Shown one piece after another: positions 5,147 through 60,062 of a stretch of 64,000 nucleotides of DNA. The first letter of the stretch is position 1; each line of letters opens with the position of its first letter. The position numbers and the translations under genes were made by a program. The stretch covers positions 1,240,001 through 1,304,000 of the forward strand of contig JAENZD010000001.1 of NCBI GenBank assembly GCA_016841445.1. Reading direction: 5' to 3'. The notes below the pieces were generated by a model. That model had not been told where the DNA came from. It searched no databases and saw only the letters and a program-made list of their open reading frames with translations. The stretch is from Anaerolineaceae bacterium (GTDB taxonomy: Bacteria > Chloroflexota > Anaerolineae > Anaerolineales > Anaerolineaceae).

Positions 5147-5165
5147 AAATTTGTGAAAATAATTC

Positions 5166-5283
5166 CATAAAGGGTGCACCTCCTGCCCGGATGCAGGGTG
5201 CATAATGGGGGAAGCTGGTGAAAGTCCAGCACTGTCCCGCAACGGTAACACATTATGTGAAGTCCGATAACCCGCCCTTTATG
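5166..5283 (+). promoter_or_regulatory. Cobalamin riboswitch aptamer
   Basis: The closing helix P1 is a perfect 9-bp pairing of CATAAAGGG (5166-5174) with CCCTTTATG (5275-5283). The conserved core is present: GGGAAGCTGGTGAAAGTCCA (5208-5227), then CACTGTCCCGCAACGGTAA, and a B12 box AGTCCGATAACCCGCC (5261-5276). It sits between a good promoter and a terminator hairpin in the 448-base gap before the transcobalamin-like gene, so it would lower expression of 5431-11321 when cobalamin is plentiful. Confidence 0.93.
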
Positions 5284-5359
5284 ACCCAAATCACTTCGTG
5301 GAAAGGTACGTTGGGTGCCAGTTTTCAGATTTCCATTGATAAAACTGGTTTAACCAACG

Positions 5360-5384
5360 ACCGCCCCTGCATGGGCGGTTTTTC
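5360..5384 (+). terminator. Riboswitch expression-platform terminator
   Basis: ACCGCCC (5360-5366), loop CTGCAT, GGGCGGT (5373-5379), then a T-run. It lies 77 bases after the aptamer and 47 before the ATG. Upstream, CCAGTTTT (5318-5325) and AAAACTGG (5341-5348) can pair, and the aptamer's own CCCGCCC could compete for GGGCGG; these are candidate alternative structures. The arrangement is that of a transcription-terminating B12 switch. Confidence 0.75.
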
Positions 5385-5430
5385 AATTTTAACCTTTTCG
5401 CAGCTATGGTAAGCCGGTAAAGGGAAAGGA

Positions 5431-7914
5431 ATGTTGGTGAAATCAAAACCAGTTAAACTTCTTCTCATCCTGATCATTTTTACATTATTAAATATCAATT
5501 CGCTTGGGAGTGTATCTTCCACACCAACATCGTTATCAAAGACTCAAGAAGATCGTGATGATGCTGTTCAAGCTGGGTTTGATTACATCTCAACCCAAAT
5601 CAATGAGGATGGCGGCATACGATGGACTGATGAAAGCTCAAGTGTTGCAGCAAGCCTGCGTGTTGTCATCGCCCTGGCAGCAAATGCTCTCCCGCAAGAT
5701 CGGATCATATCAGCCTCAGGCAATCGCCCAATTGACTTTCTGATGAAAAACGGCATTGATTGGGTCTACCAGCAAGAATCTGAGAGTCCCTCGTTCAGCC
5801 CAGCGCGTGCCGGACAGCTGCTAACGGCTATTGCTGCAGCAAATGAAAACCCCCAGGAATTTGGAAATTCTTCCATCGATCTTATCTTTGAGCTCAAAGC
5901 TTCATATGATACAACGATCGGAATTTTCGGCAATGCCCCAACAAATAATGTGATAGACCAGGTTTGGGCCATGCTAGGTTTGGCGGCAAACCATTTTGGA
6001 ATTCCTGAAGAGGCATCGCTGTGGTTAGCTGGTGTCCAGTTAGATGATGGTTCCTGGGACGACGGCTATGGTAGTTTCCTGGATACAACACCCCTTGCCA
6101 TCCTGGCTCTGACCGCAGCAGGTTGGCCGATGGAATCAGCAGGAATTCAGTCTGCACTTCAATATATCAATGACAACCAACAGGGTGAAGGCGGATGGCA
6201 AACCCAGTGGGATTCAACAACCAATCCGGACACCACCGGGATCATCCTCCAATCCTTAACCGCTACAGGTTTGGAACATGATCCCCAATGGTCAATTGAG
6301 AACAAAACGCCACAATCAGCATTGCTGGAAATCCAACAAGAAGACGGCTCTTTCGGGGCTGACTTTTCCAATGCATTCTCCACAGCCGATGCACTCATAG
6401 GTCTTTCCGCGCAGCCTCTGTTCCAATTAGGTACCCTAAAACGTGTTTCCGATGGCTTTGATTACCTCGTTTCGGCACAAGATCAAAATGGTGGTTGGGG
6501 ATCCCCTGGGCAAACGATTGACTCGATGTTGGCATTCGCAGTATCAGGATGGGATCCCAACACAATTTTAGTAGATAGCGCCACGCCTGAAGAATTCCTC
6601 ATCCAAAATTTGCAGGAATTTCTTAGTTCTGGTCCAGATGCCGTTGGAAAAATGATTCTCGCTTCTGTTATCTCGGGAAAAGACCCAACTAATTTTGGCG
6701 GCGTCGATTTGATCCAAACCCTGCAAGATGCCTTTGACCCTGAACTTTACGCTTATGGAGACCCCCAAAACACCTGGCACCAATCTTTTGCTCTCCTGGG
6801 TCTTTCAGCTGCAAAACAAGAAATACCGGAAGGAAGTGTCGAAACCCTCATCAACCTCCAGCACAGCAATGGTGGATGGTCATATAACGCTGAGCTAGAT
6901 ACATCACCAGACACCACCGCCCTGGTGATCCAAAGTCTAATGGCAAGCGGAATGCCTAATGACCATGAAAGCATTCAAAACGCCGCTAACTTCTTGCGCA
7001 AGGAACAATATGGTGATGGCGGCTGGGGAGATTCCAGCACAACAGGATATGTCATCATGGCGATTAACGCTTTGGGTCAATCAATGGGTGATTGGGTTAA
7101 AGAAAACGGGAAAACGCCAATACATGACCTGTTTACTTATCAAAACTTGAATGGTGCGTTCTATTTTAATCCTGACTATCCTGACGACAGTTTGATGTCT
7201 ACTACAACCGCATTGATCGCCCTATCTGGTCAAAGCACTATTGTTGAACCAACCAAATATGTATCTGAAAACCGTGCAGGGGTATTGGTTTTGCCTGAAG
7301 GGGAAACCGCCCATGCGGTATGTGCCTCGTTTACCCAACCCAAAATCACCGGGCTTGAACTGCTGGATATCTCAGGTATTCCTTATGAAGCCCAGGATGG
7401 ATTTATGAGTAGTATTTTAGGGATTAGTAATCCTGAGGGCGGCACCTTATATTGGTCTTACTGGCATTGGAATGGAAGAGAATGGGTTTTCAATACATCC
7501 GGAGCAGGTGATTCAGAGGTCTTCCCGGGCAGCCTTGAAGCATGGTTTCTTACAAGCTGGGAGCTGTTCCCCTCCCCGCCGCCGCGAAGTATCCCTGATC
7601 TTGATAAGATGTGCGGTGCTGAAGTCCTTAAGAATTATTCCGTCCAACCTTATCTCAATTATTATGAGCTGGATATACGCCAGGAAATTGTCTCATCTGC
7701 AGGTGAGCGGACGGAAACTGAAATATTTGAGAATACGCAAGAGGCACAAGTTTCGCCAACAGACTTGGATGAAGCGCCTGCTTTGGCTGAACCAATTATT
7801 CCGGACAATGTTGATCAAGAACCCGTTCGTTCCCTAGTACCCATTTTTATCATCGCGGCTGTTGGGCTCTCCATGTTGTTCGTTATTATCCTCATACTGA
7901 AAAAACAGAAATGA
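5431..7914 (+). CDS. Transcobalamin/intrinsic-factor-like secreted protein, C-terminally membrane-anchored
   Basis: 827 residues. Signal peptide in residues 1-30; alpha/alpha-toroid repeats of the prenyltransferase/squalene-cyclase type across about 35-600, with recurring GGW/GSW/GSF turns near residues 205, 251, 304, 352, 479, 528 and 573, enough for two barrels. A beta domain at about 610-715 resembles DUF4430, with the 'YWSYWHWNGREW' and 'EVFPGSLEAWF' signatures. A low-complexity linker and a transmembrane anchor (about 803-823) ending in KKQK complete it. Human intrinsic factor and transcobalamin combine an alpha6/alpha6 barrel with a DUF4430-like beta domain to hold cobalamin. With the B12 riboswitch upstream and ECF genes directly downstream (ATGA overlap at 7911), I infer a cell-surface cobalamin or corrinoid receptor. 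Terpene-cyclase activity is unlikely because the protein is secreted and no DxDD motif was seen. Confidence 0.8.
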   Translation: MLVKSKPVKLLLILIIFTLLNINSLGSVSSTPTSLSKTQEDRDDAVQAGFDYISTQINEDGGIRWTDESSSVAASLRVVIALAANALPQDRIISASGNRPIDFLMKNGIDWVYQQESESPSFSPARAGQLLTAIAAANENPQEFGNSSIDLIFELKASYDTTIGIFGNAPTNNVIDQVWAMLGLAANHFGIPEEASLWLAGVQLDDGSWDDGYGSFLDTTPLAILALTAAGWPMESAGIQSALQYINDNQQGEGGWQTQWDSTTNPDTTGIILQSLTATGLEHDPQWSIENKTPQSALLEIQQEDGSFGADFSNAFSTADALIGLSAQPLFQLGTLKRVSDGFDYLVSAQDQNGGWGSPGQTIDSMLAFAVSGWDPNTILVDSATPEEFLIQNLQEFLSSGPDAVGKMILASVISGKDPTNFGGVDLIQTLQDAFDPELYAYGDPQNTWHQSFALLGLSAAKQEIPEGSVETLINLQHSNGGWSYNAELDTSPDTTALVIQSLMASGMPNDHESIQNAANFLRKEQYGDGGWGDSSTTGYVIMAINALGQSMGDWVKENGKTPIHDLFTYQNLNGAFYFNPDYPDDSLMSTTTALIALSGQSTIVEPTKYVSENRAGVLVLPEGETAHAVCASFTQPKITGLELLDISGIPYEAQDGFMSSILGISNPEGGTLYWSYWHWNGREWVFNTSGAGDSEVFPGSLEAWFLTSWELFPSPPPRSIPDLDKMCGAEVLKNYSVQPYLNYYELDIRQEIVSSAGERTETEIFENTQEAQVSPTDLDEAPALAEPIIPDNVDQEPVRSLVPIFIIAAVGLSMLFVIILILKKQK

Positions 7915-8717
7915 AAATCCGCTTATTGGGATTCCTTGTAAATATTTTTGTACTCTTCCTTGGGATGGCCAGCCTCCTGGCTCCTTTTATCTTCCCCTCG
8001 GCAAGAGGTGCAGTCGCTCAAACTTCAACCTTCCCCATTATGGTCGGTTTGATTGTCGTCCTTTGTGTGTTGATCATCTTATTCGAAGCGCAGTCAGCCA
8101 TCCTTGAGACAAAGATGATTGCACTCCTGGGGGTGTTGATCGCGATCAATGCTGGGATACGCTTTCTTGAAAATGCTATCCCAGGCCCAGCCGGTTTCAG
8201 CCCAACATTTTTCTTGATCATCCTGATCGGGTACTTCTTTGGCAGCAGAGTCGGCTTCTTATTTGGCGCACTAACGATGCTTGTATCTGGCTTGCTGACC
8301 GGTGGGGTTGGTCCCTGGCTGCCAGGGCAATTGATCACAGCAGGCTGGGTCGGTCAAAGCGCAGCTTTATTAGGATTGATCACCAGAAAGCTAAACTTGA
8401 AAAACAAGATCAGTGAAGTCGTCCTTCTGGCTGCGTTTGGTGCCTTGTGGGGATTTTTATACGGCTTGATCATGAACTTATGGTTTTGGCCTTTCCTGGC
8501 AGCGTCTTCTGATCAGATTTTTTCTCAATCCCTATCCGTCTTCGAAAATTTCCAGCGATACAGTGCTTATTATGTCGCGACCTCGCTGGTATGGGATCTG
8601 ACTCGCGCGATCGGCAACGTTTTAATGATCGTTTTTCTGGCAAATCCCGTAATAAAGGTTTTACATCGATTTCATCGACGTTTTTCCTTTACCAGGTTAA
8701 AGGCGGATGAAGCATGA
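7911..8717 (+). CDS. ECF transporter S component, probably for cobalamin
   Basis: 268 residues with six or more hydrophobic segments. The centre has the S-component style stretch 'FLIILIGYFFGSRVGF...GGVGPWLPGQL', with small glycine-rich turns between helices. S components bind the substrate in the membrane and dock onto EcfT. It overlaps the receptor-like gene and the EcfT gene by ATGA at both ends, and sits under the cobalamin riboswitch, so cobalamin or a corrinoid precursor is the likely substrate (context inference). An N-terminal hydrophobic pair precedes the typical S-component core. Confidence 0.8.
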   Translation: MKIRLLGFLVNIFVLFLGMASLLAPFIFPSARGAVAQTSTFPIMVGLIVVLCVLIILFEAQSAILETKMIALLGVLIAINAGIRFLENAIPGPAGFSPTFFLIILIGYFFGSRVGFLFGALTMLVSGLLTGGVGPWLPGQLITAGWVGQSAALLGLITRKLNLKNKISEVVLLAAFGALWGFLYGLIMNLWFWPFLAASSDQIFSQSLSVFENFQRYSAYYVATSLVWDLTRAIGNVLMIVFLANPVIKVLHRFHRRFSFTRLKADEA

Positions 8718-9739
8718 AGCATACCGCATCATGGATTTTATGGCTGGTACTTTCACTCACCCTGACCCTAACTACAAGGAATCCATTTTATTTAAGCTTC
8801 CAAATATTGAGTCTATTATTGCTGGGTGTTTATATAGCTAAACAGAAGCACCATGCTTTTTGGCTATCTCAAAACATCCGGTTCCTGCTCACAATGCTGG
8901 TGATATCGTCATTGGTCAATGCTTTATTTACACACACTGGATCAACCACCCTCATCAATCTTCCAGATCATTGGATACTTGTAGGTGGTAGCATCACGCT
9001 TGAAAGCCTGATTTACGGCCAGATCAATGGTTTGATCATTGGTGCCATTTTTGTGGCTTTCAATATCATCAATCTTGCGTTAAGTATCCGGCAGTTAACC
9101 CATCTCATTCCTGGAGCACTTCGTCCGATCGCAATGACGGTGACGATCACCCTGACTTTTTTGCCATCCATTCAGCAGCGTGCACAGGAGATCAAAGAAG
9201 CTCAGCTCATCCGCGGTAACCAGATGAAGAAGATCAGGGATTGGCTTCCCCTTCTGCTGCCGCTGCTCATCTCCAGCCTCGAAAATGCGATTAGTCTTTC
9301 CGAATCGATGACCAGCCGGGGTTTTGAAACACAATCGACGGGAAAAATCACAAGACTGACTCTGGTCAGCCTCATTCTTGCCACATTTATCATCTTTTCT
9401 GCCTGGGTTTTGAGTCTATTTGATTACCCCGGTTTCATAATCCTTCCTTTGTATGCAATTGGGGGTGGCCTGGTTGCAGTAACGTTTATTTCAGCGTCTC
9501 GGAAATTAAGAACGACACATTTCAAAAAAGAAACCTGGTCAAAGAAAGATGCCCTTTCATCCGGGATATTTATCACTACCATAATTGGCACGATCATCCT
9601 GCACCAATTGGGGATGCTCCCTACTTTTTATTATTCTCCTTATCCAGGCTTAAGCCTACCTGGATTATCTCTGTCAGGGTTCTTGGTCATCTCCGTTCTT
9701 CTATTTCCCATGCTGGTTGGAAAAAATGATTCAATTTAA
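8714..9739 (+). CDS. ECF transporter transmembrane component EcfT
   Basis: 341 residues, longer than the usual 250-270 because of extra hydrophobic segments at the C-terminus (about 235-335). The two coupling motifs are AQLIRG near residue 164 and MTSRGF near residue 200. These helices contact the ATPases at 9726. It overlaps its neighbours at both ends (ATGA with the S component, 14 bases with the ATPase gene), so all four products are made from one riboswitch-controlled message. Confidence 0.88.
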   Translation: MKHTASWILWLVLSLTLTLTTRNPFYLSFQILSLLLLGVYIAKQKHHAFWLSQNIRFLLTMLVISSLVNALFTHTGSTTLINLPDHWILVGGSITLESLIYGQINGLIIGAIFVAFNIINLALSIRQLTHLIPGALRPIAMTVTITLTFLPSIQQRAQEIKEAQLIRGNQMKKIRDWLPLLLPLLISSLENAISLSESMTSRGFETQSTGKITRLTLVSLILATFIIFSAWVLSLFDYPGFIILPLYAIGGGLVAVTFISASRKLRTTHFKKETWSKKDALSSGIFITTIIGTIILHQLGMLPTFYYSPYPGLSLPGLSLSGFLVISVLLFPMLVGKNDSI

Positions 9740-11321
9740 ACACTTTTCTTTTCGATACCCAAATCAAAACCAGGCGGTTTTGAACAACATTAATCTGGAA
9801 ATTACTCCCGCTTCATTGACCCTGGTCACCGGTTCATCGGGAAGCGGTAAATCTACTTTGCTTAAGTGTATAAACGGATTGGTACCTCATTTCTCTGGTG
9901 GTTCAATCTCTGGAGAAATCGAAGTATTTAATCATGATCCGATTGAAGAAGGTCCAAAAGGTCTGGTAAAAACGGTCTCTTATGTCTTTCAGGAACCGGA
10001 ATCTCAATTCGTCTATGATATTGTAGAAGATGAAATCGCATTCTCACTGGAAAATTTCGGTATTTCACGAGATGAGATGGTGAAAAGAATCGATCTCGTT
10101 TTGAATAAAATGGGTTTAAGCGATATAAAGGGGAAAAAGATCTCACACCTTTCAGGCGGTGAGAAGCAGAAAGTCGCCATTGCGAGTGCACTGGTCAATC
10201 AGCCTCGGGTACTGATCCTGGATGAACCCACATCCCAATTAGACCCATTTACTGCTGATGCATTGTTAAACTACATCATTTTCCTAAAATCAAAGATGGA
10301 CTTAACGGTATTGATTTCTGAGCATCGTCTAGAACGGCTCTTGCCTTATTCAGATGTGATTATCCATCTGACTCCTCAAGGTGAAATCATTTCTGGCCCA
10401 ACCCAATCTGTTTTACATGAAATGGAACAAGTTCCACCCATCATTAAGATTGCCCGTATGTTAAATGTTGATCCGTATCCCCTCACGCCTAAAGAATTTC
10501 CTAATTCTCATGAAATGGCTTATAACGAAAAATCAAAAGCGACATTTGACTTGATACCTTCCCTTCAAACGCCAGTCTTGGAATGTCGTAATGTTTCGAC
10601 GAGCATCAACGGGAAACCCATTCTAAAAAGAATAAACTTCAGACTTGCCAAAGGTGAGATACTAGTCGTTCATGGACCAAATGGATCCGGTAAGACAACG
10701 CTTTCCAGAACATTGGTAGGTCTTCAATCCTCAGAAGGGCAAATATTCCTGCATGGTCAGGATACAAAATTATTGGGAACAGAAGACATGGTCAAAGAAA
10801 TAGGTTATCTTCCCCAAAACCCTGGTGATCTGCTTTTCGCCGAAACAGTGTTGGATGAGATAAAAATAACCATGAATAACCATCAACTTAAATATCATGA
10901 AGCGGATTTGATCGAATTCCTGGCTCAGTTCGGCCTAAACGAAAAGCTAACAGAATACCCTCGTGATTTATCTGTTGGCGAACGACAAAGGACGGCGCTG
11001 GCAGCGATCACAGTCCACCGCCCTAACATTATCATCCTTGATGAACCAACCCGTGGGATGGACTATCAAAATAAATCCAGCTTATCCAAGATCTTAACGC
11101 TGTGGCGTGATGAAGGGCGATCAATTTGTTTGATCACACACGATGTTGAATTCGGAGCCATGCTTGCAGACAGGGTTTTATTGTTGGAAGAAGGTGAAAT
11201 TAGTTTCGATGGCCTCCCCAACATTGCCTATACGAAATTTCCTCGTTACAGGACGCAGACGTCTCTTATCTTTCCCAATCAGAATTGGATAACGCCTGGG
11301 GATATTTCACAAATCTCCTAA
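9726..11321 (+). CDS. ECF transporter double ATPase (EcfA1-EcfA2 fusion)
   Basis: About 531 residues with two complete ABC domains. Domain 1: Walker A GSSGSGKST near 36-44, signature LSGGE near 142, Walker B VLILDEPTSQLD. Domain 2: Walker A GPNGSGKTT near 317, signature LSVGE near 418, Walker B IIILDEPTRGMD. One chain thus supplies both ATPases of the ECF module. The ATG at 9726 is chosen over an in-frame TTG at 9717 because the domain begins directly after it. Last gene of the B12 operon; no terminator hairpin with a T-run is obvious after it. Confidence 0.9.
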   Translation: MIQFKHFSFRYPNQNQAVLNNINLEITPASLTLVTGSSGSGKSTLLKCINGLVPHFSGGSISGEIEVFNHDPIEEGPKGLVKTVSYVFQEPESQFVYDIVEDEIAFSLENFGISRDEMVKRIDLVLNKMGLSDIKGKKISHLSGGEKQKVAIASALVNQPRVLILDEPTSQLDPFTADALLNYIIFLKSKMDLTVLISEHRLERLLPYSDVIIHLTPQGEIISGPTQSVLHEMEQVPPIIKIARMLNVDPYPLTPKEFPNSHEMAYNEKSKATFDLIPSLQTPVLECRNVSTSINGKPILKRINFRLAKGEILVVHGPNGSGKTTLSRTLVGLQSSEGQIFLHGQDTKLLGTEDMVKEIGYLPQNPGDLLFAETVLDEIKITMNNHQLKYHEADLIEFLAQFGLNEKLTEYPRDLSVGERQRTALAAITVHRPNIIILDEPTRGMDYQNKSSLSKILTLWRDEGRSICLITHDVEFGAMLADRVLLLEEGEISFDGLPNIAYTKFPRYRTQTSLIFPNQNWITPGDISQIS

Positions 11322-11511: not shown

Positions 11512-11539
11512 TTGTTAACCATCGTCTTATCATTAAAAT
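11512..11539 (+). promoter_or_regulatory. Candidate promoter of the AOR-Hdr-Mvh operon
   Basis: TTGTTA (11512-11517), a 16-base spacer and TAAAAT (11534-11539), 44 bases before the ATG with a strong AAGGAGAG ribosome-binding site. The 262-base gap also holds a weak bulged hairpin (ATAGGGAC 11464-11471 with GTCCTAT 11477-11483) that could be an operator or a poor terminator of the preceding operon. Nothing else is evident in the gap. Confidence 0.4.
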
Positions 11540-11583: not shown

Positions 11584-13470
11584 ATGTACGGATACAGCGG
11601 AAAAATACTTCACATCGACCTTAAAGACCGCAAACATTGGGTCGAGGAAAAACCCGAATCATGGTACAAGACCTATATTGGCGGTGTCTCAATGGCAACC
11701 CGTCTTTGCTGGGAAAACATCGAGGCTGGATGTGATCCTTACGACCTGGGAAACCCCGTGTGCTTTGCCAATGGGATTTTTGCGGGTACACCTGTACCCG
11801 TAGGTGGTAAGTATGGATTAGCTTCAAAATCACCTCTAACGGGTTTCATCGGGGACAGCCTTTCTGGAAGCTGGTTTTCCATTGCCATGAAACGAGCCCT
11901 ATGGGATGGGATTGTCATTCATAACAGCAGCGAAAACTGGATTTTCCTGTTCATTGACGACGATCGAGTCGAATTTCTGCCTGCTGAAAAGCTGCTCGGG
12001 CTTGGCACCTATGAAACAGAAGAAGCCATCCGAGATATGTTTGGTGATGACCAGGTCCGTTCTGCAACCATCGGCCCATCAGGTGAAAATATGGTTCGCT
12101 TTGCCAATGTCACCAATGATGGACGACAGGCCGGCCGTACAGGGCACGGTGCAGTTTGGGCAAGCAAAAAGCTCAAAGCTGTCTCAATTCGTGGAACCAA
12201 TGGTATAACCGTTGCTGATCCAGCAACCTTGCTGCAAATGTCCTTTGACATTACAGATGCTGCACAAGGCCCCCACACAGCAAAATATCGAATCTATGGC
12301 ACTTCAACAAATGTACTTAATGCAAATAAAGAAGGTTTCTTACCTACTCGAAATTTCCAGGAAGGCACATTTGAATTTGCAGAGTTAGTGAGCGGTGAAT
12401 ACCTTGACGAACATCACAAAGTCAAAGTTATTGCTTGCGCTCAATGCCCGATCGCTTGTGAACAAATGTCAATGGTCAAAAAAGGACCCTTTGCTGGTTC
12501 TATGACAGGTATTGAATACGAATGCTTACAAGCAGTCAGTTCAAACTGTGGTATTGGAGATATGACGGCAGCTATTAGAATGGTGGATATTTCAGATAGC
12601 AGCGGAATGGACACCATGAGCATGGGTGTCTCAATTTCCTATGCAATGGAATGTTTTGAACGTGGGGTCCTTACTAAGGAAGATTTTAAATGCAAAAAAT
12701 ACCCAGATGGTTTTGAACCATTTTTTGGCAACGGAGAAGCCGGCGTTACATTGGCTGAAATGATCCGCGATAAGGAGGGAATTGGTGAATTACTGGCTGA
12801 AGGTACAAGAATAGCAGCTAAAACAATTGATGAAGAACGGAATGCCGAATCCTGGAAATGGGCAATGAATATCAAAGGGCTGGAATGCCCCGGATATGAC
12901 GCCAGATCTTTGAAGACATTTGCTATGGGTCTCGCTGTTGGCACCCGAGGTGGTTGTCATAACCGATCATCTGCCTACGATGCGGACATCAAAGGTGAAA
13001 CAAACCGTTTCACTGTTGATGAGACACGTGGCGTCGTAGCGGCACGTTCAGAAGAATATGCTGCTGTTTATGATACGCTTCCAATGTGTAAATTTATCCG
13101 CCGCTGCTTCACCGGCAAAGCTGATCGAGCAGGTGCCTGGCCAACCATTTTCAAACTCATAAACGCAACAACCGGATGGAATTTTGATTATGACGATGTC
13201 GAGCTGATTGGTATCCGTGCTCACACGATTAAGAAAGCATTCAATATCAGAGAGGGATGGTCACAGGAAGACGACGACATTCCTTATCGCTGGAAACATG
13301 ATCCAATGACACGTGGGCCAGGGGCTGGTCATGTTGTGACTGATGAAGAGTTAGCTTACATGAAACAGCTTTATTACAAAGCTAAGGGCTGGACCGAAGA
13401 GGGTCTAATTCCTAAAAAAGTGCTTATTGACCTCGGTATGGATGATGTCGCCGAAGAAATTGGCGTATAA
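11584..13470 (+). CDS. Tungsten-type aldehyde:ferredoxin oxidoreductase family enzyme (AOR/BamB-like)
   Basis: 628 residues, normal for the family. The N-terminal domain begins 'YGYSGKILHIDL', followed by the bis-pterin-binding 'GIFAGTPVPVGGKYGLASKSPLTG'-type segment. [4Fe-4S] ligands are C285, C288 and C292 (CAQCPIAC), with the fourth probably C502 or C508. The family oxidises aldehydes to acids with ferredoxin as acceptor; the related BamB reduces the ring of benzoyl-CoA. I cannot decide between these from motifs alone, so the substrate is open. The gene after it is a four-cluster ferredoxin, then HdrA, HdrC and hydrogenase genes, so its electrons probably enter a larger complex rather than free ferredoxin. 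Confidence 0.9.
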   Translation: MYGYSGKILHIDLKDRKHWVEEKPESWYKTYIGGVSMATRLCWENIEAGCDPYDLGNPVCFANGIFAGTPVPVGGKYGLASKSPLTGFIGDSLSGSWFSIAMKRALWDGIVIHNSSENWIFLFIDDDRVEFLPAEKLLGLGTYETEEAIRDMFGDDQVRSATIGPSGENMVRFANVTNDGRQAGRTGHGAVWASKKLKAVSIRGTNGITVADPATLLQMSFDITDAAQGPHTAKYRIYGTSTNVLNANKEGFLPTRNFQEGTFEFAELVSGEYLDEHHKVKVIACAQCPIACEQMSMVKKGPFAGSMTGIEYECLQAVSSNCGIGDMTAAIRMVDISDSSGMDTMSMGVSISYAMECFERGVLTKEDFKCKKYPDGFEPFFGNGEAGVTLAEMIRDKEGIGELLAEGTRIAAKTIDEERNAESWKWAMNIKGLECPGYDARSLKTFAMGLAVGTRGGCHNRSSAYDADIKGETNRFTVDETRGVVAARSEEYAAVYDTLPMCKFIRRCFTGKADRAGAWPTIFKLINATTGWNFDYDDVELIGIRAHTIKKAFNIREGWSQEDDDIPYRWKHDPMTRGPGAGHVVTDEELAYMKQLYYKAKGWTEEGLIPKKVLIDLGMDDVAEEIGV

Positions 13471-13480
13471 GGAGATATAA

Positions 13481-13993
13481 ATGGTTGCTTCAACGTCAAA
13501 ATTTAAATATATCGTTTGCGATCCGGAATTGTGCATTGGCTGCCAGCTATGCGAATATATCTGTTCGTACACAAAAACAGGAGAATTTAACTCCTATCGC
13601 AGTCGAATTCGCACCGTACGTGTGGATGAGGTCCTGATCACGGCAGTAGCCTGCCGGACTTGTGAAAACGCCCCATGTGTCGCAGCCTGCACACGTGATG
13701 CGCTCACGCAGGATCCGGAATCAGGAATCATCCGCATTGACCCAAAGAAGTGTGATGGATGCGCCTGGTGCATTGAAGCCTGTGATTTTGGTGCAATTTC
13801 CATTAATCATGCGACAAAGTTAGCAGAATTTTGCAACCAATGTGAGGACGTCGAAGATGGACCTCAATGTGTTAAGATCTGCCCCAAGGATGCCCTGGAA
13901 TACACTACGCCAGACCAACGAGCTCAACGAACACGCCATAAACTTGTCAAAGACAGCCTTGAATTCCCTCAAAAAGCAAAGGAACCTAGATGA
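13481..13993 (+). CDS. Four-cluster [4Fe-4S] ferredoxin subunit (BamC/HycB type)
   Basis: 170 residues with about sixteen cluster cysteines: CIGCQLCEYIC near residue 18, CRTCENAPCVAAC near 64, CDGCAWCIEAC near 91 and CNQCEDVEDGPQCVKIC near 117. This is the electron-transfer subunit layout found with AOR-family and Mo-enzyme partners, and the same size and place as BamC next to BamB. It would pass electrons between the tungsten enzyme and HdrA. GGAGAT precedes the ATG by 6 bases; the stop overlaps the hdrA start (ATGA). Confidence 0.87.
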   Translation: MVASTSKFKYIVCDPELCIGCQLCEYICSYTKTGEFNSYRSRIRTVRVDEVLITAVACRTCENAPCVAACTRDALTQDPESGIIRIDPKKCDGCAWCIEACDFGAISINHATKLAEFCNQCEDVEDGPQCVKICPKDALEYTTPDQRAQRTRHKLVKDSLEFPQKAKEPR

Positions 13994-16515
13994 GCGATCT
14001 GATCAACGGACCCAACGATGAAGAACTTCGGGTTGGCGTTTATATCTGCCACTGCGGAAGCAATATTGGCGGCGTAATCGATCCCAAAGAAGTTGTTGAA
14101 TTTGCTGAAGGTTTACCGGATGTTGTTCGAGCCACCGATACATTATATGCTTGTGCAGATTCAGGCCAGCGATTAATCAAAGAAGACATTAAAAAATACA
14201 ACTTGAACCGTGTGGTGGTATCCGCCTGCTCAGTCCGTATGCACGAACCCACGTTCCGGGCGGCTGTTTCTGAAGCCGGATTAAATCCTTTCCTGATGGA
14301 AATGGCAAATATCCGTGAGCAGTGCACATGGGCACACGGCCACGACCGTGAAGGTGCACTGGAGAAAGCAAAAGATCTGACAGCTGCTGCTGTTGCTAAG
14401 ACCCGCTTTATGACCGAATTGGATATGATCGAAGTTCCGGTTACGCAAAAAGCGATGGTCATTGGCGGCGGTGTTGCAGGTATCAGCGCTTCGCTTGACC
14501 TGGCAGAACAGGGCATTGAAACCATTCTTGTAGAAAAGGAACCGACAATCGGTGGGGTGATGGCACAGCTCAACAAGACCTTCCCCACCATGGACTGTAG
14601 TATATGAATACTCGCACCAAAAATGGTTGACGCGGCGCGTCAGCCCCGAGTTGATGTAAGAGCTTTTACTGAAGTTGAAAAAGTTGAAGGTTTCGTCGGA
14701 AATTTCAAGGTTACACTGCGTGAGAAAGCAAAATATGTCATAGCGGATCGCTGCAATGGCTGTGGCGATTGTGCACGTGCCTGCCCGATTGAGGTTCCAA
14801 ATTATTTCGAGATGAACATAGCCCCCCGAAAAGCGGCTTATGTTCCAATGAGCCAGTCGGTTCCACTGATCTACTCTATTGATCTGGAAAACTGCATCCA
14901 CTGCTATAAGTGCGTTGAAGCATGCGGTGCCCTTGAGGCGATTGACTTCAGCCAGGAAGATAAGATTGTCGAGGAAGATATTGGGGCAATCATTGTTGCA
15001 ACAGGCTTTGGTCATTTTGATCCCAGCGTCATGGTTGAATACGGTTATGGACGTTTCCCAAATGTGATCACCTCGATGGAAATGGAACGTCTGAACAACT
15101 CCGCTGGACCGACCGCTGGAAACCTGATCCGCCCCAGTGATAACCAAAACCCCCAGAAATTAGCGTTCATCAACTGTGTCGGGTCACGGGACAAACGCTA
15201 CAACCCATCCTGTTCAAATTTCTGCTGCATGTACTCAATAAAAAATGCAGTTTTACTGAAACAAATGAACCCGGATGTTGATATCACGATTTATTACATG
15301 GATATCCGTACGCCTTCAAAAGGCTACGAAGAATTTTATGATCGCGCCCGAGAAATGGGTATTCATTTCAGCCAGGGGCGTCCCAGCTTGATCACAGAAG
15401 ACCCACAGTCACATAATTTATTTGTCCATGCTGAAGATGTTGGCTTGGGCCAGAACACCATCAAAGAATATGATATGGTCATGCTCAACCAGGCTGCCAT
15501 ACCGCAGCCGGACCAGGACCATATGAGTTCCGTTCTGAACGTAGCCCAAAGTCCAGGCGGCTGGTTTATGGAATATCATCCCAAGCTGCGTCCGATGGAC
15601 AGCCCTACGGATGGCATTTTCTTCGCCGGCGCTTGCCAGGGGCCAAAAGATATTCCCAGCAGTGTCGCACAGGGTTCAGCAGCCGCTGCTCGGGCCAGCC
15701 GGATTCTACATTCCGAGCAATGGGAAATCGAACCGACCGTCGCGGTGGTTTGGCCAGAACGTTGTTCAGCAACGACCAGAGGTCAAGCCTGTGGTATTTG
15801 TGCTAAAGCCTGCCCGTATGGTGCAATCTCGATAACAAGCCCAGAATTCCCGGCTGAGGTCATCACGGCTAAATGTCATGGGTGTGGTGCCTGTGTTGCG
15901 GAATGTCCTGAAGACGCCATCACCCAACTCCATTACACCGATGCCCAGGTTCTGGCACAGATGCGAGCCCTGCTTGCTGATAAACCTGAAGAAAAAATCC
16001 TCGCCTTCCGCTGCCATTGGTGTTCTTACGGCGGTGCAGACCTGGCAGGAACCAGCCATTTTGAATACACTGCGAACGAGCGTGGCCTGCGTGTGATGTG
16101 CTCCGCTCGTATGGATACAGACTTTATCTATGAGGCGTACCGCCTTGGCGCAGGTGCTGTCCTTTACTCAGGCTGCCATCCGCAAGACTGCCACTATATC
16201 ACCGGTCAATTGATCGGCGCAAAACGCGCTGAACGTCTTCAAAAGATGTTTCACCGCATGGAAATGACCGATGGTCGTTTCAGGGTTGAATGGATCAGTG
16301 CAGCCGAAGGTGACAAGTATGCAAGAGTCTTGAATGAGATGCAAATTGTGCTTGATAATATGCCTCAGGATGCGCTTAAAGCTGAAATCGAAAAACTCAA
16401 ACCCGAAATGAGCAAACGGCTTAAGAAATTCCCAAATGTCCCCGGTGTTCAAGAAGCCATGGATTACTCAGACACGCTCGCACAAGCGATCACTGACCAA
16501 AAGGAGACCGCATGA
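13990..16515 (+). CDS. hdrA: HdrA-MvhD fusion, probable selenoprotein (UGA at 14605-14607 read as Sec206)
   Basis: Flavoprotein core of heterodisulfide-reductase-type complexes, where FAD splits electron pairs. An in-frame TGA interrupts the reading frame at codon 206, inside the motif C-S-I-(TGA)-I-L-A-P-K-M. Ordinary HdrA has cysteine there (CxxC-I-L-x-P-x-M), and homology runs straight on in the same frame. A SECIS-like hairpin lies 17 bases after the TGA. Read through, it has 841 residues: HdrA N-domain 1-150, FAD-binding GGGVAG near 158, inserted ferredoxins CNGCGDCARAC (255) and CIHCYKC (302), C-terminal ferredoxins CGICAKAC (601) and CHGCGAC (629), and an MvhD domain from about 665 (CHWCSYGGADLAG). 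Sec-HdrA is known in Methanococcales and some anaerobic bacteria. A sequencing error or real truncation is the alternative. ATGA overlaps at both ends. Confidence 0.88.
14605..14645 (+). promoter_or_regulatory. Candidate bacterial SECIS element following the UGA codon
   Basis: After TGA (14605-14607), GGTTGACGC (14625-14633) pairs fully with GCGTCAGCC (14637-14645), with one G-U pair, leaving a GGC loop at 14634-14636. The loop starts 26 bases after the UGA and begins with G. This fits the bacterial SECIS rule of a stem with a G at the loop start about 16-37 bases downstream. The stem lies in coding sequence and would recruit SelB. No sel genes are in the window. Confidence 0.7.
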
Positions 16516-17471
16516 GCCATCCTTCGATGATTAAAACCTTCGCTGATGAAGTCAAAACCATTCCTGGTGGTGAACATCTGGAAAAATGCTACGCTTGCGG
16601 TACATGTGTCAGCAAATGCATGATCCAGCAGAAAGTTGACCCTGATTATAACCCACGCCGCCTACTGCGGTTGGTGATGGAGGGCATGAATGAGGAGGCT
16701 TTTTCAAGCCCCACAACCTGGATGTGTTCAGAATGCGATCTGTGCTATGAAGCATGCCCGCAAGAAATTCACATCTCCCAGGTAATCGCCGCCGTCAAAC
16801 AACTTGCTGTGGATGCTGGCTATACCTCTCCTCTGACTCCCGTTTCAGTTGATGAAGATCTCTGTTCCGGCTGCGGGATTTGTGCGATGGTCTGTCCCTA
16901 TGAAGCACCATCGCTCTACGAGAAAGAAGTTGATGGTAAACTTGACCGCTTCTCTACAGTAGATGCAAACCGGTGTATGGGCTGCGGCACCTGTGTGGCA
17001 GCCTGCCCATTAGGCGCAATCGGACGGGAAGGCGTCAGCAACGCGGAAATTACAGTTCAGCTGCAATATCCAAAAACCGAACCACCTGATTTGGTCACAT
17101 TTATCTGTGATTGGTCATTGAGGGTTGATGAAGACCTTGATATCTTAGAAAGTTATCCGGATGATCAGGTTAAAGTTGTCCACATTCCCTGCACCGGAAG
17201 AATTGACCCCCAGCATGCGCTGATGGCGCTTAAATCCGGTGTCAAAGGCGTCCTTGTTTGCGGATGTAAACCAGGAGAGTGTCATTTCAAACGGGGAACG
17301 TATGTTGCAAACTGCAAGATGAGCTTGTTAGGAACCATGTTCGGACAGGTGGATCTTCCGCAGAAACAAATCCGGTTCATCCAAATTGGAACCCAGGACA
17401 GAGGGCGAATCCGTAATGAAATTGATGCGATGTTGGACACAATTAGCGTCGTAGAGGAGGCGATATCTTGA
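16512..17471 (+). CDS. HdrC-ferredoxin-MvhD fusion protein
   Basis: 319 residues. An HdrC-like N-terminal part carries two [4Fe-4S] motifs, CYACGTCVSKC near residue 26 and CSECDLCYEAC near 72. A ferredoxin insert adds CSGCGICAMVC near 118 and CMGCGTCVAAC near 156. The C-terminal third (about 195-300) resembles MvhD, with 'IPCTGRIDP', 'VCGCKPGECHF' and a preceding 'ICDWS'. It would link the hydrogenase to HdrA. This is the second MvhD-type domain in the operon; HdrB, the usual partner of HdrC, is not encoded. Start and stop overlap neighbours (ATGA, then TTGA). Confidence 0.85.
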   Translation: MSHPSMIKTFADEVKTIPGGEHLEKCYACGTCVSKCMIQQKVDPDYNPRRLLRLVMEGMNEEAFSSPTTWMCSECDLCYEACPQEIHISQVIAAVKQLAVDAGYTSPLTPVSVDEDLCSGCGICAMVCPYEAPSLYEKEVDGKLDRFSTVDANRCMGCGTCVAACPLGAIGREGVSNAEITVQLQYPKTEPPDLVTFICDWSLRVDEDLDILESYPDDQVKVVHIPCTGRIDPQHALMALKSGVKGVLVCGCKPGECHFKRGTYVANCKMSLLGTMFGQVDLPQKQIRFIQIGTQDRGRIRNEIDAMLDTISVVEEAIS

Positions 17472-18436
17472 CAGCAAAACCTAAACTCGCCTTTTATTGG
17501 GCTGCAAGCTGCGGCGGTTGCGAAATCTCAGTCACAGAATTGGGCATGGACCTTGTCGCTGTATCTGAAAAGGCTGATATTGTTTTCTGGCCTGCTGCTA
17601 TGGACTTTAAGTATGATGATGTTCGCGCAATGCAGGATCAAGAAATTGATATCTGCTTCTTCAATGGGGCTATCAGAAATTCGGAAAATGAAGAGATCGC
17701 TCATCTTTTGCGTAAGAAATCAAAGGTCATGGTCGCGTTCGGGTCTTGCGCCCATCTTGGTGGTATTCCGGGTCTGGCAAATATGTACGATATCGAATCC
17801 CTTTGCCAGCGTGTCTTTGACACTTCACCATCCCTGGATGACAGCCGTGGTACAAGACCTCAAACCATCACTCAAATGCCTGAGGGAGAAATCAGGATTC
17901 CTGAACTCTACGACCATGTCAAACACCTTTCAGACATTGCCGATGTAGATTATTTCATGCCGGGATGTCCGCCCGTTGTAGACCAGATTGCAAAGGTCTT
18001 TGAAGCTGCGTTGAGTGGCAATTTGCCAGCAAAAGGTTCAGTGATTGGAGCAGATGTCAAATCTGTTTGCGATGTTTGCCCCAGGGAAAAAGGTGAACCA
18101 GGGTTCCGAATCACAGAATTCAAGCGACCTCATGAGGTTCAGCTTGATCCCAATAAGTGCTTCCTGACCCAGGGTGTGATATGTGCAGGCCCTGTGACAC
18201 GTGCCGGCTGTGGTATACCCTGCTTGAACGGCAATATGCCCTGTCGGGGCTGCTACGGACCGGCTGAAGGCGTCGTTGACCAGGGCGCAAAACTGGCTAG
18301 CTACATCGGGGCTCTCATCGATACGGACGATCCTGAAAAGATCAATGAGATCTTAGATTCAATTGTTGATCCAGCAGGGACTTTCTACCGCTTTGGCCTG
18401 GCACATTCGATCATGACAAAGCTGAAATATAACTAA
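17468..18436 (+). CDS. mvhG: F420-non-reducing type [NiFe] hydrogenase small subunit
   Basis: 322 residues. The proximal-cluster ligands appear in CGGCEISVTE near residue 15, 'GSCAHLGG' near 93 and 'PGCPP' near 162. The C-terminal half carries more cysteine motifs ('CDVCPREK', 'CNKCFL'-type and 'CRGCYGP') for two further [4Fe-4S] clusters. It passes electrons from the NiFe site to the MvhD domains. The start is a TTG at 17468 with GAGGAGG eight bases upstream, overlapping the previous stop as TTGA; no ATG fits. Partner of the large subunit that follows. Confidence 0.9.
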   Translation: MTAKPKLAFYWAASCGGCEISVTELGMDLVAVSEKADIVFWPAAMDFKYDDVRAMQDQEIDICFFNGAIRNSENEEIAHLLRKKSKVMVAFGSCAHLGGIPGLANMYDIESLCQRVFDTSPSLDDSRGTRPQTITQMPEGEIRIPELYDHVKHLSDIADVDYFMPGCPPVVDQIAKVFEAALSGNLPAKGSVIGADVKSVCDVCPREKGEPGFRITEFKRPHEVQLDPNKCFLTQGVICAGPVTRAGCGIPCLNGNMPCRGCYGPAEGVVDQGAKLASYIGALIDTDDPEKINEILDSIVDPAGTFYRFGLAHSIMTKLKYN

Positions 18437-18446
18437 GGAAACCCAT

Positions 18447-19913
18447 ATGAAACAGAAGATTTCCATCGATCCCATTACCCGCCTTGAGGGACATGCCCGG
18501 GTCGATTTATTCCTCAATGAAGATGGCGCACTGGCAAATGCTTATTTAGTCATTCCTGAATTACGCGGTTTTGAGAAATTCTGCGAAGGCCGACCGGTAG
18601 AGGAGATGCCCCGCATTACGCAGCGCATTTGCGGTGTCTGCCCCATTGCACATCATATGGCAGCAGCCAAAGCTGGTGATGCGGTTTATCATGTTGAAAT
18701 TCCAACAGCGGCGAAGAAATTACGAGACCTCATGTACTCCGCTTTCTTTGTTGCCGACCATGCAACCCATTTCTACATCCTGGGCGGACCCGATTTCATC
18801 GTCGGACCGGGTGCGCCTAAAGCTGAAAGAAATATCCTTGGCGTGGTGAAGAAAGTGGGGAAAGAGATTGGCGCTAAGGTGATGCGCTTACTCAAAGACA
18901 ACCACGAGATCACGGCAATGATCGGCGGGCGCTATATTCATTCCGTTAGTGCGATTGTAGGCGGGGTTAGCAAGCCTATAACCGAAACAGATCGGGTAGC
19001 TATCCTGGAGAGAGCAAAGCGGTCAGTTGAATTTGCCAAAGAATCGCTGAAAATATTTGAAGATATCGTCCTAGGCAATTCGGAATATGTCGACATGATC
19101 ATGAGCGATGCTTTTGCCCATCAGACCTATTATATGGGCCTGGTAGACGAGAACAACCATGTCAATTTCTATGATGGAAAAGTGCGGGTTGTTTCCCCCA
19201 GCGGGAAAGAACTTGTTAAATATGGACCGGATGAATACCTGGATGTGGTCGCAGAACATATCGAACCCTGGACTTATCTAAAATTCCCTTATCTCAAAGA
19301 AATCGGTTGGAAGGGATTTGTTGACGGTGAAGACAGCGGTGTCTATCGTGCCTCACCTCTATCACGTCTGAACGCAGCTGACGGAATGGCAACACCCGAA
19401 GCGCAAGGCATGTATGAGAAATTCTTTGACACCTTTGGTGGTAAACCAGTCCATTCGACCCTGGCAACACATTGGGCGAGGTTGATCGAAATCCTCTATG
19501 CAGCTGAGCACAGCGTTGAATTGGCAGAAGATGAGACCATCACGGATCCGAACGTCCATACCATCCCAACCGAAACACCAACAGAGGGTATAGGTATTGT
19601 TGAAGCGCCACGCGGCACCCTGACACATCATTATAAAACCGATGAACGTGGCCTGGTTCAGGCAGTCAACCTGATTGTGGGAACAACCAACAACTATGCT
19701 GCAATCGATATGTCAATCGTCAAAGCTGCTAAAAACCTGATCAAAGCTGGGGAGCCTGTTTCTGATGCTGCCCTCAATAAGATCGAAATGGCTTTCAGAG
19801 CATATGACCCATGTATTGGCTGCGCGACACATGCCCAGCCCGGTGAGACGCCGCTTAAGATCAAGCTGTTTGATCATGACCATACCCTCATCGAAGAAAT
19901 TAAAAGGGACTAG
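18447..19913 (+). CDS. mvhA: F420-non-reducing type [NiFe] hydrogenase large subunit
   Basis: 488 residues. The active-site cysteines lie in [11 protein letters not shown] near residue 59 and DPCIGCATH near 459. The group 3 N-terminus '[13 protein letters not shown]' is intact. About 26 residues follow the last metal-ligand histidine, the extension normally removed by a maturation protease after nickel insertion; a candidate protease is at 58954. It oxidises H2 or makes it at the NiFe site. The gene lies 10 bases after mvhG with AAGGAAA as ribosome-binding site. In methanogens this subunit works with MvhG, MvhD and HdrABC; here the Hdr partners are the two fusion proteins upstream. Confidence 0.92.
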
Positions 19914-19922
19914 GAGCCAAGC

Positions 19923-20900
19923 ATGAGCAATCGCGGAAAAACATTTATGAGCAGAACAGACCACCAGATGACCCTGGATCGCCCGATGGTTACCCGTCAT
20001 TACTTGATGACCTGGGACCTAGATCGATGCGTAGGCTGCCAGATGGGTCCAACAGTGTGCCCAAAGGAAGCACTTACACATGTGGATGGCGAAATTGTCA
20101 ACGGTCGTATGGTTACCCCACCTTCAGTGGATGTTGACCCTGATAAATGTATATTCTGTGGTATTTGCGTCGAAACTTGCCCGGTGCATGCTATCGATAT
20201 GCAAGTAAATGGCAAACATGAAATCCCCGTCATTAAATATGAAGCCTATCCTCAAATACGGGGAAACATCACCTTTACCAAGTCTGAATTTGATTTCTCG
20301 CTAAAGGATTTTGTCATCGATAACTGCCCTACCAGTGTTATCAGCTACGACGAGGAAAATGACACAATGGCAATCAAGTACGAAGATTGCATTCGCTGCA
20401 GGCAGTGTGAAGTTGCCAGCGATGGTGCCTTTAAGGTCACCCAACGCTGGGAAGGCAGTGTTGAACTGCATCGAGACCGCTGCGTTGAAGATTGCCTGGC
20501 CTGTGCAGATGTTTGCCCAACACGCGCGCTTTATATTAATGATGAAGGTGAGCTGGTCCTTGCGGATTACTACTGCATTAAGTGTGGTGCCTGTATGCAT
20601 GCCTGCCCGATCAAACCCGAATTCGAAGAAGAAACATTCACCTTTGAATCGCAGGGGTTGACCTTAACCCGCTCCCGTGAAAAACTGGTTAATGAGAATG
20701 CATTAGCAATCAAAGTAGAGCGGTGGCGGGTGAACCATAAACCGGTGAAAAGTGCAGCCTGGATTGAAGCTGTTCGAAAATTAGCAGATGACAAAGCCAG
20801 TGGAGTCGAAATTGACCGGAAACGCGCACTGAAACGGCGTGACCTGATCCTCGCGTTACGCGGTCACATCCTGCCGGACATCACCAGAGATAAAAAATAA
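19923..20900 (+). CDS. Polyferredoxin, last gene of the AOR-Hdr-Mvh operon
   Basis: 325 residues with five cysteine-rich motifs: CVGCQMGPTVCP near 38 (unusual longer spacing), CIFCGICVETCP near 77, CIRCRQC near 158 (incomplete, no CP), CVEDCLACADVCP near 190 and CIKCGACMHACP near 218. A basic C-terminal region without cysteines (about 235-325) follows. Methanogen Mvh operons also end in a polyferredoxin (MvhB), but this protein is built differently. It probably provides the ferredoxin-side electron path. AGGAG precedes the ATG; a terminator follows 21 bases after the stop. Confidence 0.82.
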   Translation: MSNRGKTFMSRTDHQMTLDRPMVTRHYLMTWDLDRCVGCQMGPTVCPKEALTHVDGEIVNGRMVTPPSVDVDPDKCIFCGICVETCPVHAIDMQVNGKHEIPVIKYEAYPQIRGNITFTKSEFDFSLKDFVIDNCPTSVISYDEENDTMAIKYEDCIRCRQCEVASDGAFKVTQRWEGSVELHRDRCVEDCLACADVCPTRALYINDEGELVLADYYCIKCGACMHACPIKPEFEEETFTFESQGLTLTRSREKLVNENALAIKVERWRVNHKPVKSAAWIEAVRKLADDKASGVEIDRKRALKRRDLILALRGHILPDITRDKK

Positions 20901-20921
20901 AAAATTATTTTTGATAACCTG

Positions 20922-20963
20922 TAACCGGACAGTTTATAATAAAATTGTCCGGTTATTATTTTT
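20922..20963 (+). terminator. Rho-independent terminator of the AOR-Hdr-Mvh operon
   Basis: TAACCGGACA (20922-20931) and its exact complement (20946-20955) form a 10-bp stem with a 14-base AT-rich loop, followed by TTATTTTT. It separates the operon from the PIG-L gene. Confidence 0.85.
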
Positions 20964-34957: not shown

Positions 34958-34981
34958 TGATCCTCCAGATACTTGATCCTT

Positions 34982-35267
34982 AAAAACAAATCGTCCCTTC
35001 ACAGGGACGAGCAATTGGCCCGCGGTACCACCCTGGTTTTCACTTTCATGTGAACACCTCAACCGGCTGCATCCTCAAACGAAACAACCGCACTTTGATA
35101 ACAGAGTGTGACTCCGGCTTCCCTACTGATCTTTCCAGATGTTCAGGTTGCAGCTCCGGAAGGATTTTCCATGTTCATCACTTCCCGGCTCTCACCAATC
35201 CCGGGATCGCTTCTGTGAGCGGAACATGTACTCGTTTCCATCAACACAAAAAATCCGCAATTTACAC
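34982..35267 (-). promoter_or_regulatory. T-box riboswitch leader (tRNA-Ile) with terminator
   Basis: The T-box AGGGTGGTACCGCGGG is at 35034-35019 (minus). The terminator is TCGTCCC/GGGACGA (34991-35010) followed by TTTGTTTTT. Stem I elements GAGTA near 35234, GGTGAGAG near 35190 and an ATC triplet in GGAAAATCC near 35160 fit an isoleucine specifier. Uncharged tRNA-Ile would bind and stabilise the antiterminator, raising ileS-lspA-rluD-ltaE expression. Confidence 0.93.
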
Positions 35268-49317: not shown

Positions 49318-49454
49318 CAATTCTCTGCTGAAGATATGACATTTGTTTATTGACCAAAAATCACAGGACGATTAGACTTATACTTTGTGGTTAATTTCAC
49401 AATCGCGGTTATTTCGCGTTTTTTACCCACAATTTATCTGGAGAATGAATATTG

Positions 49455-49970: not shown

Positions 49971-49971
49971 C

Positions 49972-50538: not shown

Positions 50539-50577
50539 CAACTCGTTTTGAAGAATTTCTATTACAGGAGCTAAAAT

Positions 50578-50946: not shown

Positions 50947-50980
50947 TCCTTAAAACCTGAGAAATTATAGAAGGTAATCT

Positions 50981-52765: not shown

Positions 52766-52803
52766 TCAGGCAACATTATTGACCACAATACAGGAGAGAA
52801 TAT

Positions 52804-53283: not shown

Positions 53284-53293
53284 GAGGCACCGA

Positions 53294-54931: not shown

Positions 54932-54966
54932 AACGATGAAAAACACAGTAATGGAGTGTCAATAAC

Positions 54967-56862: not shown

Positions 56863-56905
56863 TCCATATGACTCAATATTGGTATTCGGATTGAAAGGAA
56901 AAATT

Positions 56906-57448: not shown

Positions 57449-57456
57449 GAGAGAAT

Positions 57457-58884: not shown

Positions 58885-58893
58885 CATCAATTC

Positions 58894-58919: not shown

Positions 58920-58953
58920 ATCATTTATAACCAAAAGATGATTAATTAATTTC

Positions 58954-60035: not shown

Positions 60036-60062
60036 AAACTACAATTTTTATCTTAAAAGTAC

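Follow-up and report, generated by a model that had tools for sequence, protein, structure and literature searches.

An operon that links an aldehyde oxidoreductase, HdrA and a [NiFe] hydrogenase

What does an aldehyde oxidoreductase (AOR) do in the same operon as HdrA and a [NiFe] hydrogenase? This question is raised by a locus of an Anaerolineaceae bacterium (assembly GCA_016841445.1, 3.35 Mb in 8 contigs), which was analyzed within a window of 64,000 nucleotides (contig JAENZD010000001.1, positions 1,240,001 to 1,304,000 of the forward strand). Positions 11584-20900 of the window hold seven genes on the + strand (starts as given by the open reading frame (ORF) finder) in the order AOR, ferredoxin, HdrA-MvhD, HdrC-MvhD, MvhG, MvhA and polyferredoxin. 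We consider it fairly probable that the operon encodes a single HdrA-centered aldehyde oxidoreductase that splits electrons, sending them to ferredoxin and to an exchangeable second partner, which would be H+/H2 in this case. The gene content, the signs of TGA recoding, the co-inheritance of a core and the exchange of a block could all be read from the sequences, and at this level the composition of the AOR-HdrA-module system is well supported.

The first gene (11584..13470, 628 aa) carries both domains of the AOR family (PF02730, AFOR_N, 221 bits with a cut-off of 29.8; PF01314, AFOR_C, 343 bits with a cut-off of 27), its nearest solved chain is 1aor, and it is the sole AFOR_C match in the source genome. 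The active-site comparison with AOR that the initial annotation had proposed was made by alignment: C285, C288, C292, C502, E313 and H459 are invariant across 14 sequences, that of the window included, and the [4Fe-4S] Cys and Glu/His positions of the Pyrococcus AOR (which we take to be the cluster ligands and Glu313/His448) are present. In class II benzoyl-CoA reductase, W has a Cys ligand. When nine solved family members were scored with a profile of the AOR clade, the highest score went to Pyrococcus AOR (483 bits) and the lowest to BamB (249 bits); the single AOR sequence gave a best score of 332 bits and 154 bits for BamB, again the most distant of the nine. Judged by these scores the large subunit is AOR-type, and the earlier label "BamB-like" is not supported. 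The same applies to "BamC-like" for the ferredoxin (13481..13993, 170 aa, Pfam Fer4 domains). Its closest solved chains are AOR small subunits, 9mqx_E (WorS) followed by 8c0z_C, none of its 20 solved-structure matches bears the name of a subunit of benzoyl-CoA reductase, and four Cys quartets were counted by eye, compared with the three-cluster type of BamC. By its nearest matches, this subunit is WorS-like.

The third gene (13990..16515) encodes an HdrA that ends in an MvhD domain and is 841 aa long when an in-frame TGA is read through; it scored 1012 bits with the HdrA2 model, under the curated cut-off of 1100, and 820 bits with 5odc_A. It is followed by HdrC fused to an MvhD domain (16512..17471, 319 aa), MvhG, the hydrogenase small subunit (17468..18436, 322 aa, PF01058; VhuG model 212 bits, under its cut-off), and MvhA, the large subunit (18447..19913, 488 aa, PF00374; 5odc_F 399 bits), in which the motifs RICGVCP and DPCIGCATH were recognized by eye and no in-frame TGA occurs. 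The last gene encodes a polyferredoxin (19923..20900, 325 aa) that is nearest to FwdF among solved chains. HdrB is absent from the operon, as a Pfam scan of the seven genes found no CCG domain, and neither a BamGHI-like NADH module nor a NuoEFG-like WorABC module is among them. The initial annotation had described an HdrA-centered operon in which an AOR-family enzyme is combined with an Mvh-type [NiFe] hydrogenase, and the genes were found as claimed.

A conserved core and an exchanged module

Relatives of the operon were collected from two sources: the best matches from 396 genomes of the class, which yielded 30 loci and 40 further regions (some short or end-of-contig matches were skipped), and the best 80 of at least 570 confirmed matches from a scan of named genomes. 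The 130 loci examined comprised 104 that were distinct by AOR DNA, 80 of which had an AOR identity of at least 50%. The gene set recurs across Anaerolineae and its order, the conservation of which the initial annotation had proposed to check, was found again in relatives down to ∼50% AOR identity. On the AOR tree, a quick tree with 18 open forks of 86, the nearest rows to the window are Brevefilum and other Anaerolineaceae. A MoaD-like gene lies immediately upstream of AOR in many relatives, but not in the genus of the window.

Partner modules, labeled by same-strand tblastn (E 1e-6; L093, L123 and L021 by hand), were visible in 54 of the 80 relatives; the remaining 26 loci were mostly cut at contig ends and had HdrA in view in 16 cases. 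Ferredoxin and HdrA were present in all 54 and the polyferredoxin in 51, the other three contigs ending earlier. Between HdrA and the polyferredoxin, these operons carried a Flox-like NADH module (24), the MvhGA hydrogenase (16), HdrB (12), a formate dehydrogenase (Fdh, one) or Mvh together with Flox-like genes (one). The Flox-like module combines MvhD, FrhB/FdhB-like, Fe-S and NAD-binding domains, the last with DHODB-type Fe-S; the labels Flox and MoaD are presumptive and follow from domain content. The Fdh module belongs to locus L123 (FdhA 873 bits, cut-off 666). Two cultured relatives, Pelolinea submarina and Ornatilinea apprima, carry the Flox-like module. The initial annotation was right to name a hydrogenase as the partner of the AOR-Hdr unit for the window, where MvhGA takes this place, but it is only one of several exchangeable modules.

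Mapped onto the AOR tree, the Mvh and Flox types required 12 changes over 40 rows, compared with 12.8 ± 1.5 in shuffled labels (12 or fewer changes sufficed in 199 of 500 shuffles), so the two modules are scattered about as by chance. The count without L021, a locus of Mvh type, was similar (11 changes over 39 rows, 12.3 ± 1.4 in shuffles, 131 of 500 at or below). HdrB-type operons were confined to one part of the tree.

The pairwise identities were analyzed for 38 of the 40 Mvh and Flox rows (without L093 and L021), with 500 label permutations. The identity of AOR correlated closely with that of ferredoxin (r 0.97, 703 pairs), HdrA (0.96, 703 pairs) and polyferredoxin (0.97, 666 pairs), less with the N-terminal part of HdrC (0.81) and least with the MvhD part of HdrC (0.55). 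Sharing the same module had an effect on identity of 0.001 for ferredoxin, 0.005 for HdrA and 0.007 for polyferredoxin, values that were reached by 373, 4 and 11 of the 500 permutations; for the N-terminal part of HdrC and its MvhD part the effects were 0.069 and 0.214, which no permutation reached. The genus of the window holds both types, Mvh in the window, L080, L083, L117 and L120, and Flox in L125, L078 and L082. Between the two types within this genus, identities were 82-91% for AOR, 82-90% for HdrA and 71-81% for polyferredoxin, compared with 54-63% for the N-terminal part of HdrC and 29-35% for its MvhD part. A second genus with both types gave 92% for AOR, 94% for ferredoxin, 91% for HdrA, 95% for polyferredoxin and 65% for the N-terminal part of HdrC (genome G075, Mvh, and G006, Flox). 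By this pattern within both genera, the exchanged piece runs from HdrC through the module and is flanked on both sides by core genes; the polyferredoxin, which lies outside the block, belongs to the core by its inheritance.

None of the 54 resolved AOR operons was found to combine HdrB with Mvh, Flox or Fdh, and the simplest reading is therefore that these modules share one port on HdrA. HdrA would then have three outlets: one for ferredoxin, one for AOR and a third that takes either HdrB or, via HdrC and MvhD, a hydrogenase, NADH or formate module. Outside AOR operons, 13 MvhA loci, chosen by hand among the matches that 87 of 400 genomes gave, had HdrB in 10 cases and AOR in none of the stretches fetched. 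A broader proposal, for which we see about even chances, is a plug-in platform in which a core of selenocysteine-containing HdrA, AOR and polyferredoxin would keep its place, and terminal cassettes for H2, NADH, formate or disulfide would be swapped by niche at one genomic and structural port, even within a genus. The system would offer a natural experiment on partner change in HdrA complexes. Since the differences between close relatives lie chiefly in the block that starts at HdrC and ends with the module, their comparison should reveal docking surfaces and electron paths.

Several loci showed particular arrangements. The fdhA of the AOR operon in L123 (L123:5735-8594) also requires TGA readthrough, after NNIDHCARL. 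In L129 (L129:14974-20300), MvhG and MvhA are followed by FloxC- and FloxB-like genes, the first of these two without a Pfam match at 1e-5, before the contig ends; this is perhaps a double H2/NADH module. Genome G002 has a divergent HdrC-MvhD-FloxC set (L048:16838-18493) ∼3.7 kb upstream of its Mvh-type operon, with no HdrA in view before the contig end, and this set is possibly a spare cassette.

A probable selenocysteine in HdrA

The standard code splits hdrA into two ORFs (13990-14607 and 14623-16515), and a single protein of 841 aa results only if the TGA at 14605-14607 is read through. This codon, residue 206 of HdrA (DCSI-U-ILAP), occupies the position of the second Cys in the motif FPTxDCSxC and very probably encodes selenocysteine (Sec), judging from the codon pattern and machinery described below. 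The HdrA-MvhD gene was thus present as named in the initial annotation, which had overlooked the in-frame TGA. As the Sec codon makes standard gene calling split hdrA, the system is easily missed.

The motif was in view in 67 of the 80 distinct relatives, with TGA in 52 and Cys in 15. Among the 359 conserved, degenerate codon columns of HdrA in the 52 TGA genes, five had frozen synonymous sites; they were consecutive, at codons +7 to +11 after the TGA, and none of the 348 columns outside positions 207-219 was frozen. The frozen codons make up the stem TGACGC-GGC-GCGTCA (14628..14642, + strand), which hardly varies and is proposed to be a bacterial selenocysteine insertion sequence (SECIS) hairpin. 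Folding energy alone did not separate TGA from Cys versions (z-scores of -2.61 for the window, -0.36, -0.73 and -0.32 for three TGA relatives and -2.47 for one Cys relative), and the SECIS proposal therefore rests on the frozen codons. SelA, SelB and SelD were all found in the source genome above their model cut-offs, the SelD gene itself containing one TGA, together with a match to tRNA-Sec of 69.5 bits. In the 35 genomes checked, SelB was above cut-off in 24 of 24 TGA-type genomes and in 0 of 11 Cys-type genomes. A TGA at the second Cys, a candidate SECIS and the Sec machinery are thus found together in this organism. Sec in HdrA has been reported for archaea and some Deltaproteobacteria (PMC13188914).

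Two observations weaken this evidence. The tRNA-Sec match carries less weight because 5 of 14 control genomes also scored above the cut-off of the model, and the contrast in SelB counts as a single evolutionary event because all 11 Cys-type genomes share one family code (f53). If the TGA were a sequencing error or a nonsense mutation, hdrA would be broken, and translation with table 11 does yield two ORFs. We give this explanation almost no credence, given that 52 of the 67 relatives with a visible motif have the TGA, that the codons following it are near-invariant, and that SelA, SelB, SelD and a tRNA-Sec match accompany it, with SelB confined to the TGA types among the genomes checked.

Proposed electron flow

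From the gene set we infer a physical complex that may bifurcate electrons; its electron path, direction, metal (W or Mo) and substrate are likewise proposals. AOR, with W or Mo at a bis-pterin site, would oxidize an aldehyde or catalyze the opposite reaction, and the WorS-like subunit would pass the electrons to HdrA, probably via the MvhD domain of HdrA itself. The flavin of HdrA, located in the Sec-bearing part of the protein, would split the electron pairs. Low-potential electrons would reach ferredoxin through the ferredoxin domains of HdrA and the polyferredoxin, and higher-potential electrons would travel through HdrC and the second MvhD domain to the exchangeable terminal module. With MvhGA as this module, H+/H2 would substitute for the NAD+ of the tungsten oxidoreductase (WOR) of Acetomicrobium or for the disulfide of methanogen Hdr.

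In the WOR literature (PMC13328260), the aldehyde/acid couple is placed at ∼-500 mV, and the authors argue that at low aldehyde the reduction of ferredoxin needs a co-acceptor, for example NAD+ (-280 mV), to be favorable. Starting from -414 mV for H+/H2 (PMC9304861), we calculated ∼-296 mV at 10 Pa H2. The hydrogenase and NADH modules would therefore be equivalent under syntrophic conditions.

Some findings speak against a single HdrA-centered enzyme. In Class II-III WORs, a WorLS pair as a rule comes without an Hdr module (PMC13328260). Among the relatives, L093 has 8,636 nt between the AOR-ferredoxin pair and HdrA with the rest of the operon, L074-L077 (AOR 45-48%) have AOR and ferredoxin with HdrA not in view, and L095 and L113, which lack HdrA within ∼3.4 and ∼1.5 kb past the ferredoxin, may be further exceptions. 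The correlation of AOR with HdrA and polyferredoxin may simply reflect common descent, and the same-module effects on HdrA and polyferredoxin are tiny yet non-zero. Finally, the 469 ORFs found in the flanks of the 80 relatives were grouped into families by clustering, and no recurring neighbor that points to a substrate was recognized among these families, which were not annotated singly; the listed families are mostly restricted to a single lineage. The assignment of a substrate from gene neighbors was accordingly abandoned.

The arrangement in L074-L077 and L093, together with WorLS pairs that occur without Hdr modules (PMC13328260), would also fit two co-regulated machines, a conventional AOR/WorS that passes its electrons to free ferredoxin and an independent HdrA-HdrC-Mvh hydrogenase that taps the same pool. 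This account is possible but rather doubtful, as an exchange of the genes between HdrA and polyferredoxin leaves the set of AOR, ferredoxin, HdrA and polyferredoxin intact. In addition, 10 of the 13 MvhA loci elsewhere retain HdrB, and because HdrA stands here without HdrB, an Mvh version without AOR would lack a third redox partner. A single complex could also run in reverse, so that H2 (or formate or NADH) and reduced ferredoxin drive the conversion of carboxylate to aldehyde by confurcation, for example in alcohol formation. AOR and hydrogenase both catalyze reversible reactions. For AORAa, a reduction of acids that is driven by H2 has been reported (PMC9295118). We nevertheless think the reverse direction unlikely, since no alcohol dehydrogenase was recognized among the listed flank families, which were not annotated singly, and the alternative port, that of HdrB, usually leads to an electron acceptor.

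A BamB-like reductase of aryl- or acyl-CoA has in its favor that Bam complexes are the AOR-family enzymes described with HdrA-like parts (PMC13328260). This reading was rejected on the relative bit scores of AOR and ferredoxin and is very improbable: BamB was the most distant of the nine solved relatives found, the ferredoxin is nearest to WorS, the operon has no NADH-module genes and the genome has no second AFOR_C match. The HdrA-centered aldehyde oxidoreductase with ferredoxin and H+/H2 as acceptors is the reading that we retain.

Other loci without the standard arrangement

Among the 24 distant AORs (<50% identity), HdrA was present in the stretch examined only for L153, a metagenome-assembled genome of Oscillospiraceae. 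This locus, an AOR-HdrA set outside Chloroflexota, holds a MoaD-like gene, AOR (40%), ferredoxin, a fusion of HdrC with an NAD(P)/FAD oxidoreductase, polyferredoxin and HdrA; the partner seems to be the HdrC/NAD(P)-FAD fusion. Downstream of AOR in L074 and L075, proteins of ∼595 aa that looked flavoprotein-like by eye replace HdrA, with four similar ones in a row in L075. The record of L095 is titled Pseudomonadota and its AOR was placed among Anaerolineae rows; it is probably a mis-binned contig or a transfer.

The source genome also has a separate Hdr-Flox-like locus (L168, C3:566000-582000). It encodes a small DsrE-family protein, an HdrC/HdrB-like fusion with CCG domains and an HdrA of 1182 aa, followed by MvhD- and Flox-like genes, a GcvH-like protein and a lipoate ligase. 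The locus is reminiscent of lipoate-linked sHdr systems, but it has an NADH module.

Relation to known systems

The closest chains to HdrA, the MvhD domain and MvhA are those of the HdrABC-MvhAGD complex of methanogens (5odc type), with which the operon shares HdrA, MvhD, MvhG and MvhA. It differs in being bacterial (Anaerolineae) and in lacking HdrB, and hence the heterodisulfide site; AOR and ferredoxin would occupy the free port. With WorABCSL of Acetomicrobium mobile (Wor-Bfu, Class IV WOR), a bifurcating tungsten AOR, it shares relatives of WorL and WorS and the same proposed logic, a split of aldehyde electrons between ferredoxin and a second acceptor (PMC13328260). In the operon, however, the bifurcating unit would be HdrA instead of the NuoEFG-like WorABC, with H+ as the second acceptor; relatives would use an NADH, formate or disulfide module in its place. 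The class II benzoyl-CoA reductase BamBCDEFGHI likewise has an AOR-family subunit joined to Hdr-like proteins (PMC13328260), whereas the AOR and ferredoxin of the operon are nearer to aldehyde oxidoreductases, BamGHI-like genes are lacking and a hydrogenase is present. The domains of the alternative module fit the Flx/Flox-HdrABC NADH complex of sulfate reducers, and its label is presumptive; in contrast to that complex, HdrB is absent and the Flox-like set replaces the Mvh block in the AOR operon of relatives.

Modular use of HdrA, HdrA proteins with Sec, bifurcating WOR and Bam were already known, and the system is a variant of HdrA-based and WOR systems that belongs to neither Bam nor WorABC. 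A 2026 classification of WORs (PMC13328260) places the WorABC type and Bam in Class IV. The initial annotation knew of no characterized complex with this exact gene set, and none was described in the literature searched, subscription papers being outside our reach. Neither a combination of AOR with HdrA and Mvh nor module exchange was described in this literature, which includes passages of PMC13328260, PMC5736913, PMC7325909, PMC11291895, PMC7382037, PMC9304861, PMC13188914 and PMC11650866. If the proposal is true, an HdrA-based branch would be added to the tungsten oxidoreductases, and aldehyde conversion in Anaerolineae would be tied directly to H2, formate or NADH along with ferredoxin reduction.

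Transcription signals and other features of the window

The seven genes are compactly arranged, with overlaps of 4 nt at three adjacent pairs and gaps of 9-10 nt at the others. Downstream of the polyferredoxin, an intrinsic-terminator-like hairpin (20921..20956, + strand) has a stem of 15 pairs and a T-rich tail, and the next gene begins at 20987. The compact operon with overlaps and a terminator that was claimed initially is thus borne out by seven genes at their places, by agreeing Pfam identities and by this hairpin. As the window holds 14 terminator-like sites compared with 11.4 ± 3.2 in shuffled sequence, the terminator call rests on position and stem length. A scan for promoter-like sites found no excess in the window (18, compared with 17.4 ± 4.5 in shuffled sequence). 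The top site directly upstream of the operon is at 11512-11539 (9 of 12 matches), and the best of the window lies downstream of the operon, ahead of the next gene (20911-20940, 11 of 12 matches).

Upstream of the operon, a cobalamin riboswitch (5155-5293) is followed by a squalene-hopene-cyclase-like repeat protein (5431-7914) and, by eye, ECF-transporter-like genes, the region extending to 11321. The genes of this region (5155-11321) occur again upstream of the operon within the genus of the window. On the - strand, a T-box leader (35000-35253) overlaps the mechanical start of an ORF of 1083 aa (31811-35062). A second [NiFe] hydrogenase cluster at 49452-63399 comprises NuoE-like, two NuoF-like and NuoG-like genes, a NiFe large subunit (57457-58884) and HypF (61105-63399), a gene content that suggests an NAD-linked, possibly bifurcating hydrogenase.

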